Part shown: positions 39,025 through 47,191 of the stretch, one piece after another
Numbering within the stretch: the first letter of the stretch is position 1
Layout of the letters: each line of letters opens with the position of its first letter
Source: Peptococcaceae bacterium BICA1-7
Lineage (GTDB): Bacteria; Bacillota; Desulfotomaculia; Desulfotomaculales; Desulfocucumaceae
Reading direction: 5' to 3'
NCBI GenBank assembly: GCA_000802095.1
Contig: JUEB01000009.1
Location: forward strand, 186,001 to 250,000
DNA: 64,000 nt
Program-made: the position numbers and the translations under genes
The notes under the pieces: model-generated
What the model saw: only the letters and a program-made list of their open reading frames with translations
The model's database searches: none
Told to the model about the DNA's origin: nothing

Positions 39025-39061
39025 AGTAATTTATTATAGCTTGTGTTTCCCGGGAGTATTT

Positions 39062-40606
39062 ATGAAAAAAAACGATCAGCCCAGTGTATCCTTCTGGATA
39101 CCTTTATTTGTGGTAGTGCTGGGAGCCTTTGCGGCAATACTGAACAACAGCTCCATAAATGTGGCCCTGCCCAAAATGATGGCCATTTTCGGCGTATCGG
39201 CGGACGAGGCCCAGTGGGTGCTGACTGCCTATATGCTTACTTCCGGGGTGGTAATTCCTGTTACCGGCTACCTGGGTGACGCCTTCGGAACAAAAAGAAC
39301 CTACCTTTTTGCCCTGGCGGTGTTCATGGCAGGATCGCTGCTGTGCGGCCTGGCCTGGAGCAATAATTCCCTGATTGTGGCCAGGATTATACAGGGCATC
39401 GGGGGCGGCGCCATAATGCCTGTCAGTATGGCCATCGTGTACAGGATAGTGCCCCGTAATAAGATCGGCACTGCCCTGGGGGTATGGGGAATGGCGGTGA
39501 TCACCGCCCCGGCCATAGGCCCCACCCTGGGAGGGTATGTAGTTGACCATATGAGCTGGCGTTTTCTTTTTACCCTAAATGTCCCGGTAGCTGTGCTGGC
39601 CATTGCCCTTGGAGCCATGCTGCTGCCGGAGAGCGGGGCCAACCGGGACCTTAAATTTGATCTGTGGGGATTTTTGACTTCGGCCATCGGCTGTTTTACC
39701 CTGCTTCTGGCGCTGAGCCAGGGGCACAAGGAAGGGTGGGACTCCTTTTATATTATATTTCTTTTAATCTTTTCTTTATCTATGCTGCTTCTGTTTGTCA
39801 TGATTGAGCTTTCTATTCCCTATCCCATGCTTAATCTGAGGCTTTTCAAAAACAGTATTTTTTCCATCAGTGTTTTCGGAGGCAGCCTAATTTCCCTGGG
39901 ACTTTTTGGGGGTATGTTCCTGCTGCCTATATTTACCCAGAATCTAATGGGCAAAACCCCTATGGAAACTGGCCTTATGCTTATGCCCGCCGCCCTTGTG
40001 TCGGCCGTAATGATGCCTATCAGCGGGCACCTGTTTGACAGGATAGGCCCCCGGGCTATAACCATCACCGGCCTTTTGATACTTGCCCTGGGCACCTGGG
40101 AGTTTAAGAACCTTAGTATAGACTCAACCGTGTTTTACATAACTGTAGTAGCAGCCATCCGCTCCCTGGGCATGGGCCTGGCCATGATGCCTATGACTAC
40201 AGCGGGTATGAACACCATACCTCCCCCCGAAGTAGGCAGGGCCTCGTCCCTGAGCAACGTCTGCAGGCAGGTGGCCGGTTCCTTCGGAGTGGCCATGCTG
40301 ACCACAATTATGCAGGGGCGGCAGACACTGCACCTGGCCCACCTCTCGGAATCGGTTTCCGCTGGATCGCCGGCAGCGTCTCAGTTCATCCGGGATCTGA
40401 GCGGCATGCCGGGCCTGGCAGGGGATGCCGGGCAGGCAACTGCCCTGTCAGTGATTTCCGGCCTTGCGGCCAGGCAGTCTATGGTGCTGGCCATTGACGA
40501 CACCTTTATTGTGGCTACACTGTTTATCGCCATAGCTGTACCTTTTGCCTTTTTCCTTGGCAGTGGCAAAAAAAACACTGTTCCGGACGAGAAAATAAAG
40601 CCCTGA
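39062..40606 (+). CDS. MFS drug exporter, DHA2 (EmrB/QacA) family
   Basis: 514-residue 14-helix transporter. The start, GAFAAILNNSSINVALPKMMAIFGVS, and LTAYMLTSGVVIPVTGYLGDAFG with motif A, plus GIGGGAIMPVSMA and motif C (GVWGMAVITAPAIGPTLGG) are typical of EmrB. The ATG at 39062 follows CGGGAG. Exports hydrophobic compounds or antibiotics. It lies upstream of a MarR regulator gene, the common repressor-exporter arrangement. Confidence 0.92.
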   Translation: MKKNDQPSVSFWIPLFVVVLGAFAAILNNSSINVALPKMMAIFGVSADEAQWVLTAYMLTSGVVIPVTGYLGDAFGTKRTYLFALAVFMAGSLLCGLAWSNNSLIVARIIQGIGGGAIMPVSMAIVYRIVPRNKIGTALGVWGMAVITAPAIGPTLGGYVVDHMSWRFLFTLNVPVAVLAIALGAMLLPESGANRDLKFDLWGFLTSAIGCFTLLLALSQGHKEGWDSFYIIFLLIFSLSMLLLFVMIELSIPYPMLNLRLFKNSIFSISVFGGSLISLGLFGGMFLLPIFTQNLMGKTPMETGLMLMPAALVSAVMMPISGHLFDRIGPRAITITGLLILALGTWEFKNLSIDSTVFYITVVAAIRSLGMGLAMMPMTTAGMNTIPPPEVGRASSLSNVCRQVAGSFGVAMLTTIMQGRQTLHLAHLSESVSAGSPAASQFIRDLSGMPGLAGDAGQATALSVISGLAARQSMVLAIDDTFIVATLFIAIAVPFAFFLGSGKKNTVPDEKIKP

Positions 40607-40639
40607 TACAGTGAATAATCAAACCGTAGAGAGGTTATT

Positions 40640-41116
40640 ATGCAGAAAAAGGAACCACTTCTTACTTCTTCCTTTCACCAGGCCTATAAAAGCACTAAAA
40701 AGATTTTTTACTGCCTGGGTCAGGAGCAGGGCCTGCCGATAGCCCAGTGGTCGGCCCTGAAAACACTGTGGAATGTTGACGGCCTGACTATTTCAGAAAT
40801 GGGGGAAAAGCTTTTTATAAAGAACAGCACCATGACTGCCCTTATTGACCGCATGGAAAGGGACGGGCTTGTCCGCAGGGAGAGAGACCCCCTTGACCGC
40901 AGGTCTGTCCGGGTATTTCTCAGTGAAAAGGGGGCCTGCCTCAAAGACAGTGTTCCCGACCTTGAGGTCTATTTCAGGAAAACTGTGAGCAGTGTTTTAA
41001 GCGAGGAGGAGATTAGCACCTTAATTCTACTGCTGGACAAAATGTCCGTAGGTCTTGGCAATTATCTGGAAAATAATAAGAACTGCACACTTCAAAAAGA
41101 AAACTGCTGTCCGTAG
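40640..41116 (+). CDS. MarR-family transcription regulator
   Basis: 158 residues with a central winged helix (LTISEMGEKLFIKNSTMTALIDRMERDGLV) and wing RRERDPLDRRSVRVFLSEKG, typical MarR. The C-terminus has two Cys (NCTLQKENCCP) that could sense oxidants. It sits 33 bp after the exporter and probably represses it, perhaps through the palindrome at 39008. Confidence 0.9.
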   Translation: MQKKEPLLTSSFHQAYKSTKKIFYCLGQEQGLPIAQWSALKTLWNVDGLTISEMGEKLFIKNSTMTALIDRMERDGLVRRERDPLDRRSVRVFLSEKGACLKDSVPDLEVYFRKTVSSVLSEEEISTLILLLDKMSVGLGNYLENNKNCTLQKENCCP

Positions 41117-41231: not shown

Positions 41232-43490
41232 CTAAGCAAACTGGCTTTTCTCTCCGGTATAATAAAGGGCCAGCCGGTGGAGCGCCCTGGTACAGGCAAT
41301 ATACAAAAGCTTTCTGTCATGCCCGGTGAAATAATTTTTCCTGGAGACATCATCCACAAGCACCACATCAAATTCCAGACCCTTGGCAGTATAGGCTGGA
41401 ATGACCAGCGCCCCTTTTTTAAGCTCCCTGCTATTTCCCGCCAGGTTTACCTCTGTCAGATCTTTGAGCCTGGAGTAAAGCGCCTCGGCTCCGGCCCGGC
41501 TCTTGGTAATCACCGCAATGGAACGGTAGCCCTGAGCAAAGTAGAGGTCTATATCCTCAGCAATAGCCCGGTCAGCCTGGTGCCGGTCCTCCCTGCGCAC
41601 CACCGCCGGCCTGGTTCCGTGCCGGTTAAAAGAAATAAATTCCTGTTCTCCGGCCAGCAGATTCCGGGTATACTGGTTTATTTCATAGGAGGAGCGGTAA
41701 CTTTTGTTCAAGACCAGCCTTAACGTCTTTTCCGCGCCCAGTATCTTGGTTATGTCATCATAGAGAGAAATATCCGCATCCCTTTCGATGGACTGGTGGA
41801 TATCCCCCAGCACAGTATATCTGGCATCTCTGAACAGCAGCTTAAAAACCTCATAATGTACAGGATAATAATCCTGCGCCTCGTCTATTACTACCTGCTT
41901 TATATCCGGAAACATACTGCTTCCTTCCACCCTCAGCTTCAGATACAGAAGCGGCCCGCAATCCTCATAGCGGGCATACCCTTTTTCAAGGCAGCCCCTG
42001 GTTGCGTCAATTATCTGATCTATATCCAAAGGCAGCGCCATACCCCTGGCAAGCCTATTAAAAAGCCTGGAATCGTCAAAAAGAGCTTTGTATAAATGCA
42101 CATAATCAACCTCTGTAAACCTGCGCAGCCTATCCATAAAGACCCTGGTTTTCTTAATGGACAGCAGCCGGCTGAAAGACTTTACCTCCAATTCATGCCC
42201 CTCGCTGTCCGCCACGGTCTTTTCTATTTTGGCAAGCCTCTTTCTCTGCAGAGGGTGCACCTTATTCAATATTATATTTTCAATTCTTTTCAGCCTCTTG
42301 GCCATAGGGGTTCCGTATTTATTGTCCAGAAAAATATTTTTAATCCTCTGCCTGGTTTCAATTACCCTGCCGTCATAGTAAACATCCTCAAAAGGGATCA
42401 TGCTCCGCTCAAAGTGCTGTATAAGCCTGTCAAGCAGCTTCACAAAACACAAGGACCCCTTAAACTCCATGCCGCTCCTTCTCAGCTCTGCTTCTCCCTG
42501 CCCCTGGGCAGTGGTCAGCAGCTCCAGCTGCCCGCTGCGCGGCTCGAACCTCATCCTGCCGTCAAAAAGCCTGGCGGCAATATCATCAAAGGTTATCTGA
42601 TCCACATTCTCTTCTCCCAGCTCGGGAAGCACACTGGATATATATTTACTGAAAACGGCATTGGGCGAAATTATAATAAAGCTGCTGCGATTTATGCCTG
42701 AGTTCATTCCCCTGTAAAGAAGAAAAGCAATCCGGTGCAGAGCTATGGATGTCTTCCCGCTTCCAACCACTCCCTGCACAATTAATATATCATTCTCGGT
42801 ATCCCTTATGGCTGTATCCTGTTCCTTTTGTATAGTTTCAACAATGTTTTTCATCCTTGGGGAGGCATTTTTACTTAGCACCTCCTGTAAGATTTCATCA
42901 TTTATCTTTATGCCGCAATCATAAAAGTATCTAAGCTGTGAATCCTTAATCTTATACTGCCTTTTTAAAAGCATTTCCCCGGAGATAATTCCTGCAGGGG
43001 CATCGTACCCGGCCCTTCCCGGCTCATGCTGATAGAACATGCCTGCAATTGGAGCACGCCAGTCATAAACAAGTATGCTGTTTGTCAGGGAGTCCATAAC
43101 ACTGGAGATTCCCACATAAATCTTGTCACTGACGGGCAATCCGTCCTCAATAAAATCGAACCTGCCAAAGTAAGGGGAGTCCAGCATCTTCTGCTGTCTC
43201 TCCACCTCTTTTAATGAGCCGTTGTAATACGCAGTCTGGTAGTTAACCTCAGAAAGGTATTGATTAGCCTCGGTAAGCCTGTCAAAGTCATTGGAGAAAT
43301 GAACAGTATTTTCATACATATCCCTTCTTATATCTACTAGCCTGCCCTTTCTTTCAACCAGTTCAGTTGTTTTTCTGTCCAGTTCACTTTTGATAAAAGA
43401 AGTTACCCTCTCAAGATAATCCGATTCTTCCCGGTGATTTTGCTGGTAGCTCCCCACTTCATCACACTCCACACTATAATCATTAATCAA
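41232..43490 (-). CDS. helD: HelD-type SF1 ATPase (RNA polymerase recycling factor family)
   Basis: 752 residues. An N-terminal coiled-coil arm (EESDYLERVTSFIKSELDRK), Walker A VQGVVGSGKTSIALHRIAF near residue 247, VIDEAQDYYP, and late motif TAKGLEFDVVLVDDV identify the UvrD/HelD family. HelD proteins bind RNA polymerase and free it from DNA using ATP. The linker region (SVMDSLTNSILVYDWRAPIAGMFYQ) is family-typical. Monocistronic; the region upstream carries a divergent strong promoter for a candidate sRNA. Confidence 0.92.
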   Translation of the reverse strand: MINDYSVECDEVGSYQQNHREESDYLERVTSFIKSELDRKTTELVERKGRLVDIRRDMYENTVHFSNDFDRLTEANQYLSEVNYQTAYYNGSLKEVERQQKMLDSPYFGRFDFIEDGLPVSDKIYVGISSVMDSLTNSILVYDWRAPIAGMFYQHEPGRAGYDAPAGIISGEMLLKRQYKIKDSQLRYFYDCGIKINDEILQEVLSKNASPRMKNIVETIQKEQDTAIRDTENDILIVQGVVGSGKTSIALHRIAFLLYRGMNSGINRSSFIIISPNAVFSKYISSVLPELGEENVDQITFDDIAARLFDGRMRFEPRSGQLELLTTAQGQGEAELRRSGMEFKGSLCFVKLLDRLIQHFERSMIPFEDVYYDGRVIETRQRIKNIFLDNKYGTPMAKRLKRIENIILNKVHPLQRKRLAKIEKTVADSEGHELEVKSFSRLLSIKKTRVFMDRLRRFTEVDYVHLYKALFDDSRLFNRLARGMALPLDIDQIIDATRGCLEKGYARYEDCGPLLYLKLRVEGSSMFPDIKQVVIDEAQDYYPVHYEVFKLLFRDARYTVLGDIHQSIERDADISLYDDITKILGAEKTLRLVLNKSYRSSYEINQYTRNLLAGEQEFISFNRHGTRPAVVRREDRHQADRAIAEDIDLYFAQGYRSIAVITKSRAGAEALYSRLKDLTEVNLAGNSRELKKGALVIPAYTAKGLEFDVVLVDDVSRKNYFTGHDRKLLYIACTRALHRLALYYTGEKSQFA

Positions 43491-43561
43491 TAATATTACA
43501 TTGTATTGTCACAACAATAATATTAACCTGTTAAAACAAACTTTATACCGCCTGCATACCA

Positions 43562-43590
43562 TTGACAGGACCGTATAATTATGATATAAT
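43562..43590 (+). promoter_or_regulatory. Consensus sigma-A promoter
   Basis: TTGACA (43562-43567) and TATAAT (43585-43590) with an exact 17-bp spacer, a perfect match to the housekeeping consensus. It points to the + strand and away from helD. Confidence 0.9.
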
Positions 43591-43596
43591 ATATAT

Positions 43597-43693
43597 GTAA
43601 TATTAATGATAATGCACAATCTAATATAGATATTACATTTTATACATTGAGGGCTATTCCAGTAAAATCTGAATAGCCCTCAATTTTTCTTTT
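43597..43693 (+). ncRNA. Candidate small RNA of about 95 nt
   Basis: Starts about seven bases after the -10 box. GTAATAT (43597-43603) pairs perfectly with ATATTAC (43630-43636), closing a 26-base loop, then an AU-rich linker, then a 13-bp perfect stem (43647-43659 with 43671-43683) and TTTTTCTTTT. No frame with a ribosome site lies inside. Promoter, two hairpins and terminator together make a free-standing sRNA gene likely. Target or role is unknown; an RNA homologue family is not recognised. Confidence 0.7.
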
Positions 43694-43783
43694 AACAACG
43701 GTTTTATACTGTATAACTCTTGCATACTCCATTTACTTTAAATTATCAGTGTTTTCCAAAACAAACTATAGAAAAGTAATAAA

Positions 43784-43819
43784 CCACCAGCTGCCTGTAC
43801 ATTAACCGGCAGCCGATGG
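43784..43819 (-). terminator. Likely terminator of tRNA-Pro
   Basis: CCACCAGCTGCC pairs with GGCAGCCGATGG (two mismatches); on the minus strand TTTATTACTTTT follows. Confidence 0.5.
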
Positions 43820-43876
43820 TTTTCCTCACCGTAAAGCTACAGTATAATCATTTTTACCATCATTGAAGCTTTTTAC

Positions 43877-43953
43877 TGGTCGGGATGACACGACTTGAAC
43901 GTGCGACCTCACGGTCCCGAACCGTGCGCTCTACCAAACTGAGCTACATCCCG
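43877..43953 (-). tRNA. tRNA-Pro (anticodon CGG)
   Basis: Reverse complement begins CGGGATGTAGCTCAG and ends with CATCCCG then ACCA; the 3' CCA is encoded. The anticodon arm CACGG-TTCGGGA-CCGTG reads CGG (codon CCG), giving tRNA-Pro. D-loop (AGCTCAGTTTGG) and T-arm (GTTCAAGTC) are normal. The degenerate island begins on its 5' side. Confidence 0.95.
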
Positions 43954-44166: not shown

Positions 44167-44706
44167 TCACTGTCCGGGCTGACCAGGGACGCAGCCGTGC
44201 AGGGTGATGTTATTAGACACAACCGCTACACTTTTTCCTTGAACCGCTACGAGGTTTGCGATAATATTCATGATCGTCTGGGTTTTGCCGGTGCCGGGCG
44301 GTCCTTCGATAACTGATATAGAACTTGTAAGGGCATTCTCCAGTGCAGCTTTCTGGCTGAGGTTAAATCGGAATGGAAAAATGATACTGTCGGTGCCGGG
44401 AGTTCGCGGTTCAATCGCCTGTCGGTTCAGGTAACGGCTCAGTACACTTTCCGGGTGAACCAAGGTAAGCTGCTCCATTTCCCGTTTTAAAAAAGCCTCT
44501 TCTTCCGGGTTGTCTGACGTATATTGAGATATATCTCGCAGATAGGTCTGTATCTGCTGGGCATCCTGGCTGGCAGATACATCACTGACCAATGATAATG
44601 ATTGACGCCTAATTGTACGAGCTTTACCGCTGTATTGGATGATACGGATCCATTCTCCAAAGTCAAGAATTAGCTGCGGCTCATAGACAGGCATGCCTTC
44701 AAACAT
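44167..44706 (-). pseudogene. Truncated SF1 (UPF1/DNA2-like) helicase fragment
   Basis: A fragment of a large AAA_11/UvrD-like helicase: FNLSQKAALENALTSSISVIEGPPGTGKTQTIMNII holds Walker A, and VAVVSNN follows. Then the reading breaks off within about 15 residues (LHGCVPGQPGQ), far before the Walker B and other motifs. The N-terminus also starts mid-domain. It is therefore a remnant of a protein usually several times longer. Confidence 0.75.
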
Positions 44707-44933
44707 AAGCGACCTGTCCGTCTAGATTAATTATCTCAGGCTCTATAATCAGTAGGCAAATTTGTACTGCATGCTGAGGAAAAAAGACATATGGTCACCA
44801 AGTATATTCCAGCACTGATTAACTTTTTAACCATACTCATTTTACCTCCATAAAAATTAATTATAAGTGCATTTATTATCATCGTTTTACCATTAGTTTT
44901 ATGGATAATGGGAAGTTATTAGATTATATTAAA

Positions 44934-45386
44934 TTACCAATTAAACCAGACGACAAGACGAATCTGGTCATCGGAAAAACGATGGTCTTTCTCAAGTTGA
45001 AGTACTAAGTTCGCTACTGTGTTCCAGTCGGAATCCTTAAGCATCTCATCAAGATTAGGTATATTTTTCACTTCACTCCATAAGGCATAAGTATAACCTC
45101 CACATTCTCCAGGGCCATATTGGCATTCGTGTTTAGCAATAACTTTAAGCTCAGCCAGAACTTCGTTCGAAGGATTTGGTGGCGAACCACGCGTAGCAAA
45201 TATTCCTTCAATATCAACTTCACCTGCAACACAACGCTTTGATAGACCGAAGAGTTGCTCAGAAACATGATCAGATACATCGATAATTGTACTTAAATTA
45301 ATTGCACCACTCCAAGCATTCTCTTCCTGTTTTTCCTCACCTGTAAACCTAGAGATCTCGACCCAACCTTCGATCCAAAAAGGCAT
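44934..45386 (-). CDS. Unrecognised 150-residue acidic protein
   Basis: MPFWIEGWVEISRFTGE start, acidic, aromatic-rich, ends DQIRLVVWFNW. No domain recognised; isolated soluble proteins like this in defence or toxin islands are sometimes immunity proteins, but nothing here proves it. The ATG has GAGG eight bases upstream, and the frame is intact within a region where all neighbours are broken. Confidence 0.6.
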   Translation of the reverse strand: MPFWIEGWVEISRFTGEEKQEENAWSGAINLSTIIDVSDHVSEQLFGLSKRCVAGEVDIEGIFATRGSPPNPSNEVLAELKVIAKHECQYGPGECGGYTYALWSEVKNIPNLDEMLKDSDWNTVANLVLQLEKDHRFSDDQIRLVVWFNW

Positions 45387-45455
45387 TGTTTATTCCTCGC
45401 TTAATGTTTTATTGATTTCGGTCCCATGAGACTTAATGCCACCAGTACAACAAAG

Positions 45456-45660
45456 AGACAAGTGGACGGTTCTTCTGACTTTGACTTGCAAATTTCTTTA
45501 CCTTACCCAATTAAACCAGTAATCACATCAATCTTTCCTATGGATAGATTTTTTTGGTGAATAGCAACTTTTATTTTTCCGTACTTTAGTTTTTCGATTG
45601 CCTTGGCTAATTATAATAAAATACATTTAAGACAAGTGAACCGTCCCCTTGTCTTTCTAA
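45456..45660. repeat. Inverted-repeat-bounded remnant (REP/MITE-like)
   Basis: GACAAGTGGACGGTTCT near 45458 and GACAAGTGAACCGTCCCC near 45634 contain opposite copies of GGACGGTTC/GAACCGTCC. The second also forms AAGACAAG...CTTGTCTT. These are typical ends of small non-autonomous or REP-associated elements. No gene lies between them. Confidence 0.5.
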
Positions 45661-45688
45661 TCCGCTCGCTATGATGTGATTGAGGTAA

Positions 45689-46501
45689 TTAAATTTTAAA
45701 TAACGTCTCTAACTCTCTTATTCTTTCTGACTTTATCACATAACCGAGATTATTTGGAATATTTGATAAAGCAATAGGTACCTGTAAAGTAGGAACATTA
45801 ATAATTTTTACTTCACCAGTAGCAGTATATTGGGGTCCAGCATATAGTACGCCTACTAAAATTATTCTAGACCTTCCTAAATATGTATTACCACTTTCCA
45901 TATAAATACAGGAAAACCGCTTGACCCTGGAAAACATGCAGCATCAATTACAAACTCTTTTTTACCATTATAATCAAAGTTTATATTTGTAGCAGTAATA
46001 CCTCTACGAAAAAATTGGCTTATTATTAATCTTATCCCATATTCCATTTGGATACCCTACCATAAGAATTTCTTCTAGTGCAGACATTTGTTCCAACTGT
46101 TCTTTGGTAGGAAGTAAAGATATGTCTAGTGATATATAAAATAGATTTTCATTTCTTTGTTTTGCTCCATTAATAAATGGAGCAATTGGCATTGCGCACA
46201 AGTCAACACTGGAATCAGGATGCTTTCTCCAGTACTGCTCAAAATTATCAAAAATAATGTTAAAATGTTCTTTATCGTTTGGTTTTGATTCTTGTGTGGC
46301 TTTTGTAAATACTAAACGTCCTTTTACTGCACCATTAATAACATGCTTATTGGTTATAACTACTGGTACATGAGTATTATCATCCTTGTTATCAAGAAAT
46401 CTAAAAAAGAAACCTGTTCCTGTACCACTATTACCATCAGCATACTGGCATTCAATTCTCACTGTCGAGTATGCAATTTGTTCTGATATTGAAATATTCA
46501 T
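45689..46501 (-). pseudogene. Frameshifted trypsin-like serine protease
   Basis: The first part (MNISISEQIAYSTVRIECQYADG) contains ITNKHVING (catalytic His) and DSSVDLCAMP (Asp), then stops after NKPIFS at a TTTTTT run near 46010. Removing one T restores the frame (RRGITATNINFDYNGKKEFV) and gives PGSSG with the catalytic Ser, but a second frameshift follows near 45905 before the last part (YMESGNTYLGRS...). So all three catalytic residues are there but in three frames. Intact parent would be about 270 residues. No signal peptide; probably an accessory (defence-type) protease. Confidence 0.75.
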
Positions 46502-46930
46502 AAAATTGTCCCTCACTCCCCGACTTCCCATTATAGACATTTGCACTCAATCTTTTAGCATGTCTTCTTAATCAGTTAGACTTTTAAAATATTTGGTTTC
46601 CAAAAATAAACAGTAAACCAATTTAATTATGACTATATTTCTTCCAATTAAGACAATTTCCTTCCTTTCCAGGAAAAACAATCCATCCGCAAATTTATAT
46701 AATAAACTTAATTCCCGAGGAAAGCTCGGTCTGAAATAAAAACAAAAGCGCCAGGAGAATTAATTCCTCCCGGCGACATATCTACGTTGAACTGATTACC
46801 TTATATTTCCTGAAGAATTTTAAATCGTGGGTCGTTGTCAACTCTTCCCCATCAAGCCCCTCAGTCTCTGCAAGAATCTCCTCGTTGATTTTGCCGGTAG
46901 AATTTTCGGTCAGTATTTGCAGTTTGCCGT

Positions 46931-47191
46931 TCAGCTTTCTTTAAATACCCGTATGAGATACGCAGAATGATATACACGACTAACGTCATTGAAGGTTATC
47001 ACAGGCAATTACGGAAAATAACCAAGACAAAGACATCGTATCCGACCGACGAATCCCTGGTTAAGATAGTATACCTGGCCACAGTTGAGGCTTCAAAGAA
47101 ATGGACCATGCCCATAAGGGAATGGAATACCTGCATTTCGCAATTTGCAATATTCTTTGAGGATAGATTGGGGTCAGAAATGGCAATATAA
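46931..47191 (+). pseudogene. C-terminal fragment of an IS256-family transposase
   Basis: FFKYPYEIRRMIYTTNVIEGYHRQLRKITKTKTSYP and LVKIVYLATVEASKKWTMPIREWN are the classical IS256/Mutator C-terminal region containing the last catalytic Glu (VIEGYHR). Only about 85 residues remain out of roughly 400, and the sequence joins unrelated DNA at about 46931. No terminal inverted repeats are seen, so it is a dead remnant. Confidence 0.85.

Follow-up and report, generated by a model that had tools for sequence, protein, structure and literature searches.

The small RNA signal beside helD in Peptococcaceae bacterium BICA1-7 as the probable antisense arm of a convergent promoter pair

Control of helD by convergent promoters in Bacillus subtilis

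In Bacillus subtilis, helD is placed under two convergent promoters, PhelD and Panti-helD, as described in the main text of Sudzinova et al. (2026; PMC12802891). Panti-helD is the stronger promoter and yields a terminated antisense RNA of about 90 to 94 nt, termed ashelD, while PhelD is weak because of slow polymerase escape (PMC12802891). The repression of PhelD by Panti-helD via transcriptional interference was shown experimentally, and sub-inhibitory rifampicin stalls the polymerase at Panti-helD, which leads to the induction of helD (PMC12802891). This inducibility is lost when the antisense -10 box is mutated, when the promoters are swapped, or when the 39-bp distance between the start sites is cut by 17 bp; the control of helD is explained there by promoter order and escape kinetics. 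The published search motif has 45 to 55 bp between the -10 boxes and TTG in both -35 boxes, the latter being a search criterion only, since looser motif models were used later (PMC12802891).

Facing promoters and a predicted antisense RNA upstream of helD

The window, i.e., the whole 64-kb stretch of DNA analyzed here, harbors a helD gene encoding a class I RNA polymerase recycling factor (Table 1). The protein matched the NCBIfam profile NF041464 (HelD_BACSU) with 610 bits (curated cut-off 419) and is the B. subtilis-type equivalog. The open reading frame is listed from a TTG at position 43490; the GTG at 43457 is the likelier start codon by comparison with relatives. The Desulfosporosinus gene shows the arrangement GGAG-9 nt-ATG (GGAGTGTGATCCAATG), which is the same Shine-Dalgarno sequence and spacing as in the window. 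Because of this start codon and this placement of the Shine-Dalgarno sequence, the predicted helD leader reaches back over the RNA element described below. It is about 65 nt longer than in most relatives. Close to helD, a gene for an MFS transporter followed by a MarR-family regulator was found (39041-41116). A tRNA-Pro (CGG) gene (43877-43953, minus strand) is followed by its own terminator-like long hairpin at approximately 43783-43827. The region 44167-47191 contains truncated frames, among them a fragment of an AAA/UvrD-like helicase (Pfam) and, recognised by eye, one resembling a transposase (46967-47191); it has the appearance of a decayed mobile or defence region.

Table 1. Features of the helD upstream region (positions in the window)
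Feature	Position	Strand	Details
Panti-helD, antisense promoter	43562..43590	+	TTGACA 43562-43567, 17-nt spacer, TATAAT 43585-43590
Predicted antisense RNA (ashelD-like)	43597..43691	+	about 95 nt, exact ends predicted
5' stem, 8 bp	43597..43636	+	43597-43604 paired with 43629-43636, AT-rich
Intrinsic terminator	43646..43693	+	14-bp perfect stem, 43646-43659 with 43671-43684, 11-nt loop
helD, class I RNA polymerase recycling factor	41232..43457	-	NCBIfam profile match
helD Shine-Dalgarno sequence GGAG	43470-43467	-	9 nt ahead of GTG 43457
Predicted helD 5' leader	43457..43632	-	predicted start site about 43632
PhelD, sense promoter	43637..43666	-	TTTACT 43666-43661, then TATAAA 43644-43639 or TAAAAT 43642-43637
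Possible second helD promoter	43505..43534	-	TTAACA-18-GACAAT, particular to this genome
Inverted repeat	43486..43610		arms 43486-43501 and 43595-43610, 15/16 matching

The initial annotation had proposed a small RNA gene with a perfect TTGACA-17-TATAAT promoter at this site. The promoter was confirmed; it matches the consensus at 12 of 12 positions and has, in addition, an extended -10 TG (43582-43583). In the genome (4.75 Mb), 40 perfect promoters with spacers of 16 to 18 were counted, compared to five matches of a reversed control pattern, so that the consensus match is well above chance. The predicted start G43597 is located 7 nt beyond the -10 box and, as annotated, at the 5' arm of a stem, which comprises 8 bp instead of the 7 bp given before and whose arms coincide with two predicted start sites. 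The perfect terminator stem with its T-rich tail (TTTTTCTTTT) was likewise found, with 14 rather than 13 bp, and its loop contains the complement of the sense -35 box of PhelD. The 97-nt stretch that was folded gave -27.6 kcal/mol (z -5.4, equalled by none of 200 shuffled sequences), a stability due mostly to the terminator. In agreement with the annotation, a frame of seven codons from an ATG (43608-43631) in the RNA region is devoid of a Shine-Dalgarno sequence. The RNA also belongs to no known family as far as Rfam is concerned: no family reached the threshold, and the relaxed search returned chance-level matches only. A DNA search for homologues of the RNA in 60 relatives and in the rest of the genome revealed none beyond chance. 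A short terminated RNA starting at 43597 is very likely from the sequence, because promoter and terminator recur in relatives and the size corresponds to that of B. subtilis ashelD. The annotated RNA gene is not free-standing, however. The initial annotation had overlooked both the GTG start of helD and a promoter on the minus strand, PhelD, which sits opposite the 3' half of the RNA and faces Panti-helD. The predicted RNA crosses PhelD and is antisense to the predicted helD mRNA over approximately 35 nt at the 5' end of the latter.

PhelD scores 9 of 12 with a spacer of 16 or 18; the choice of TATAAA as -10 box comes from the alignment with relatives. Compared with the 12 of 12 of Panti-helD, this is the poorer consensus match, which is no measure of promoter strength. 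PhelD is weaker in the window than most sense promoters of the relatives, its spacing being non-ideal. The predicted start sites of both promoters are about 34 to 36 bp apart. In either orientation, no other promoter pair in the 64-kb window reaches at least 20 of 24 matching positions. The two sigma-A-type promoters face each other less than 300 bp upstream of helD with spacers within 16 to 20, and the distance between their -10 boxes (46 to 48 bp; 46 or 48 bp according to the -10 box chosen for PhelD) falls within the published 45 to 55 bp. The literal B. subtilis pattern with TTG at both -35 positions fails in the window, where the sense -35 box is TTTACT, a box that many relatives have as well.

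The overlap of about 35 nt at the 5' ends of the two predicted transcripts would also be expected if the antisense RNA acted in cis by base-pairing with the helD mRNA instead of through polymerase collision. This overlap is, however, separated from the Shine-Dalgarno sequence of helD by more than 100 nt and little conserved, and the control in B. subtilis has been attributed to promoter order and escape kinetics in the published text (PMC12802891). Pairing of the two RNAs as the regulatory step is decidedly unlikely.

A possible second helD promoter, which appears to be particular to this genome, is situated downstream of Panti-helD and would therefore escape interference; it could provide a certain amount of helD without involvement of the switch. 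Close to this second promoter is an inverted copy of the Panti-helD start region. The corresponding inverted repeat links the helD leader to the antisense start region (p approximately 0.002 by shuffling). This 15/16 repeat would suit a DNA-binding protein that co-regulates both promoters, whose operators would be the repeats of ATGTAATAT (43493-43501, 43595-43603, and 43630-43638). Yet the region is AT-rich, the repeats do not form a conserved motif in the orthologues, and the regulator is a putative one, which makes such an operator system very improbable.

Conservation of the promoter pair among relatives

Homologues of helD were gathered from relatives and from Desulfosporosinus, and a close set of 26, which includes the window and shares at least approximately 49% protein identity, was compared. 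The same convergent pair precedes helD in 18 of these 26 orthologues, in the order sense promoter, 44 to 49 bp, antisense TTGACA promoter, start codon; the other eight showed no convincing pair. Under strict criteria, whose gap limits were fixed after inspection of the alignment and with which broader scans agree, the pair was present in 13 of 26 close orthologues, while 0.04 were expected from dinucleotide shuffles; the reversed sequences contained none and the opposite orientation one. Among the more distant helD homologues, none out of 21 had the pair under these criteria. The gap between the -10 boxes was 44 to 49 bp across 19 loci and thus similar to the 45 to 55 bp of the published motif. 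The antisense -35 box, nearly always TTGACA, matched the consensus at 5.8 of 6 positions on average, and the weak sense -35 box at 3.7 of 6. Of the 26 helD regions (300 bp each), 11 had pairs scoring at least 21, compared to six such pairs in 446 kb of oriented non-helD sequence, a harsh control as these loci are enriched for perfect promoters. With a stringent exact pattern, only seven places were found in 113 genomes of the class (one control match), four of them at helD. The helD gene is absent from the two genomes of the same genus. No second copy of the switch was detected in the own genome with the stringent pattern, and pairs obtained there with a loose pattern were discarded, having poor sense -35 boxes or lying at sites without a suitable gene start.

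The perfect promoter, with 40 versus five control matches in the genome, and its conserved placement in relatives also speak against the assumption that promoter and terminator arose by chance or were left behind by a lost gene. The degraded gene fragments at 44.2 to 47.2 kb would be in line with such a decayed, inactive remnant, but in view of the former two observations it is extremely improbable.

When 16 antisense RNAs were aligned, the columns without variation turned out to be the complements of the sense -10 box (TATA) and of part of the -35 box. RNAalifold returned no consensus pair for these 16 sequences. The initial annotation had put forward conserved pairing in the 5' stem among homologues as a check, and had named the loss of pairing together with a decaying promoter as evidence against the RNA gene. 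Across homologues, 56% of the cells of the 5' stem were paired, in AT-rich sequence, and in a separate, anchored test its pairing did not exceed what base composition gives. The outcome of the check is mixed: the stem is not conserved, but the promoter is. The pair counts for the two stems of the window were somewhat above slid controls, probably due to the terminator, which several loci share in place. A conserved structured small RNA was rejected as a candidate, there being no consensus fold across the 16 homologues. Judged from these alignments, it is the two promoters and the distance between them that are conserved, and RNA structure is not the main constraint. A terminator is present on the antisense strand at most helD loci. 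Its hairpin bears the sense -35 box in or next to the loop in the window, in L065 and L067 and, by eye, in L073, L076, and L097; in L066, L069, and L070, the terminator is located just past the sense -35 box.

A free-standing, trans-acting small RNA with targets of its own, for which the proximity to helD would be incidental, could equally show a clean promoter, a discrete length, and a stable fold (z -5.4). Across genera, though, the element retains its place and direction with respect to helD, while the RNA sequence and the 5' stem are not conserved; there is no consensus fold, the invariant columns belong to the promoters only, most of the fold stability resides in the terminator, and the DNA search found no homologue away from helD. 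We therefore consider a trans-acting role quite unlikely.

The two promoters, their orientation and spacing, the terminator, and the conservation of this arrangement are present as sequence signals. Since the parts and their order agree with those of B. subtilis, with a predicted RNA of approximately 95 nt and about 34 to 36 bp between the predicted start sites, the element most probably represents Panti-helD with an ashelD-like RNA, i.e., the antisense arm of a convergent promoter pair which controls helD by transcriptional interference. From the analogy with B. subtilis, we infer transcription, interference, and induction by rifampicin in this organism. The full-consensus Panti-helD would fire away from helD and across the facing weak PhelD, and the antisense polymerase would halt at the intrinsic terminator just past PhelD and release the RNA. 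As long as the polymerase is uninhibited, this traffic would dislodge polymerase waiting at PhelD and keep helD expression low. At low rifampicin concentrations, polymerase would stall mainly at the antisense promoter, the busier of the two; the interference would then be lifted and helD induced, and RNA polymerase would be protected. The antisense RNA itself would be mainly a by-product.

Additional elements and comparison with known systems

Within positions 7 to 14 after the sense -10 box, a purine-purine-CA motif was found at 13 of the 19 helD loci outside the window (1.6 expected, at most seven in 2000 shuffles), and G[AGC]CA in the same place at 10 of 19 (0.3 expected); the motif was picked after the sequences had been inspected, and several of the 19 loci are close relatives. 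At helD in the window, the purine-purine-CA motif is missing at the usual place. Hypothetically, this motif in the first transcribed bases of helD may encode slow promoter escape. Neither the motif nor the terminator hairpin bearing the -35 box is described for B. subtilis.

Three of the seven class-wide pattern matches precede a gene for a YoaA/DinG-like helicase, whose best NCBIfam match (NF053712, 185 bits) is below the cut-off of 680 bits. The convergent pair was found at five of 26 loci of this helicase, including L139, where the pair (copy L132) precedes the gene by about 330 bp, which is outside the upstream scan range. The pair with a hairpin beyond it was seen upstream of the helicase gene at L131, L132, L137, L140, and L145 (genomes G063, G065, G034, G068, and G041, respectively). 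No pair is located in front of the helicase gene of the own genome (G000:C9:144120-145505, minus strand). DinG is not mentioned in the main text of PMC12802891. The YoaA/DinG-like helicase is newly proposed here as a candidate for the rifampicin-alarm regulon. It is conceivable, albeit rather doubtful, that the alarm of anaerobic Bacillota differs by an extra conserved purine-purine-CA motif, maybe for the slow escape that the switch requires, and a terminator with the -35 box in its loop, and that the pair also controls this helicase.

The lineage is not named in the main text of PMC12802891. The present pair would extend a newly described protein-free antibiotic sensor consisting of two colliding promoters to strictly anaerobic bacteria of the Desulfotomaculum/Desulfosporosinus type. 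The approximately 20 natural variants form a comparative set for reading the sequence rules of the switch, and where helD is accompanied by a clean "orphan sRNA" signal, this signal should be interpreted as the antisense arm of a switch of this type.

The comparison with the helD upstream region of B. subtilis rests on the published text, not on its sequence. According to this text, both systems have in common a class I helD, the order and orientation of the two promoters, and a similar spacing; by consensus match, the sense promoter is the weaker and the antisense promoter the stronger one here, too. The antisense RNA, predicted to be about 95 nt here, is close to the 90 to 94 nt of ashelD, and in both cases the terminator is located past the sense promoter. 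Differences are the antisense spacer (17 bp with full consensus here, 19 bp in the published B. subtilis antisense promoters), the leader (a predicted 175 nt or so compared to 98 nt), the weaker sense promoter, and the possible extra promoter downstream; the rifampicin response, demonstrated for B. subtilis, is presumed here. The B. subtilis pair Ppps/Panti-pps (PMC12802891) has the same two-promoter design at another gene. Six genes with a PPDK_N domain (pps/rph/PPDK-like) are encoded in the own genome on contigs C11, C17, C21, C24, and C29, two of them divergent on C24, and no convincing dual promoter was found upstream of these six. The rifamycin-associated element (RAE) upstream of actinobacterial helR/helD, given in the published text as a 19-bp palindrome of unknown mechanism (PMC12802891) and not hinted at by the analyses run here, is likewise a rifamycin-linked control of a HelD-family gene.
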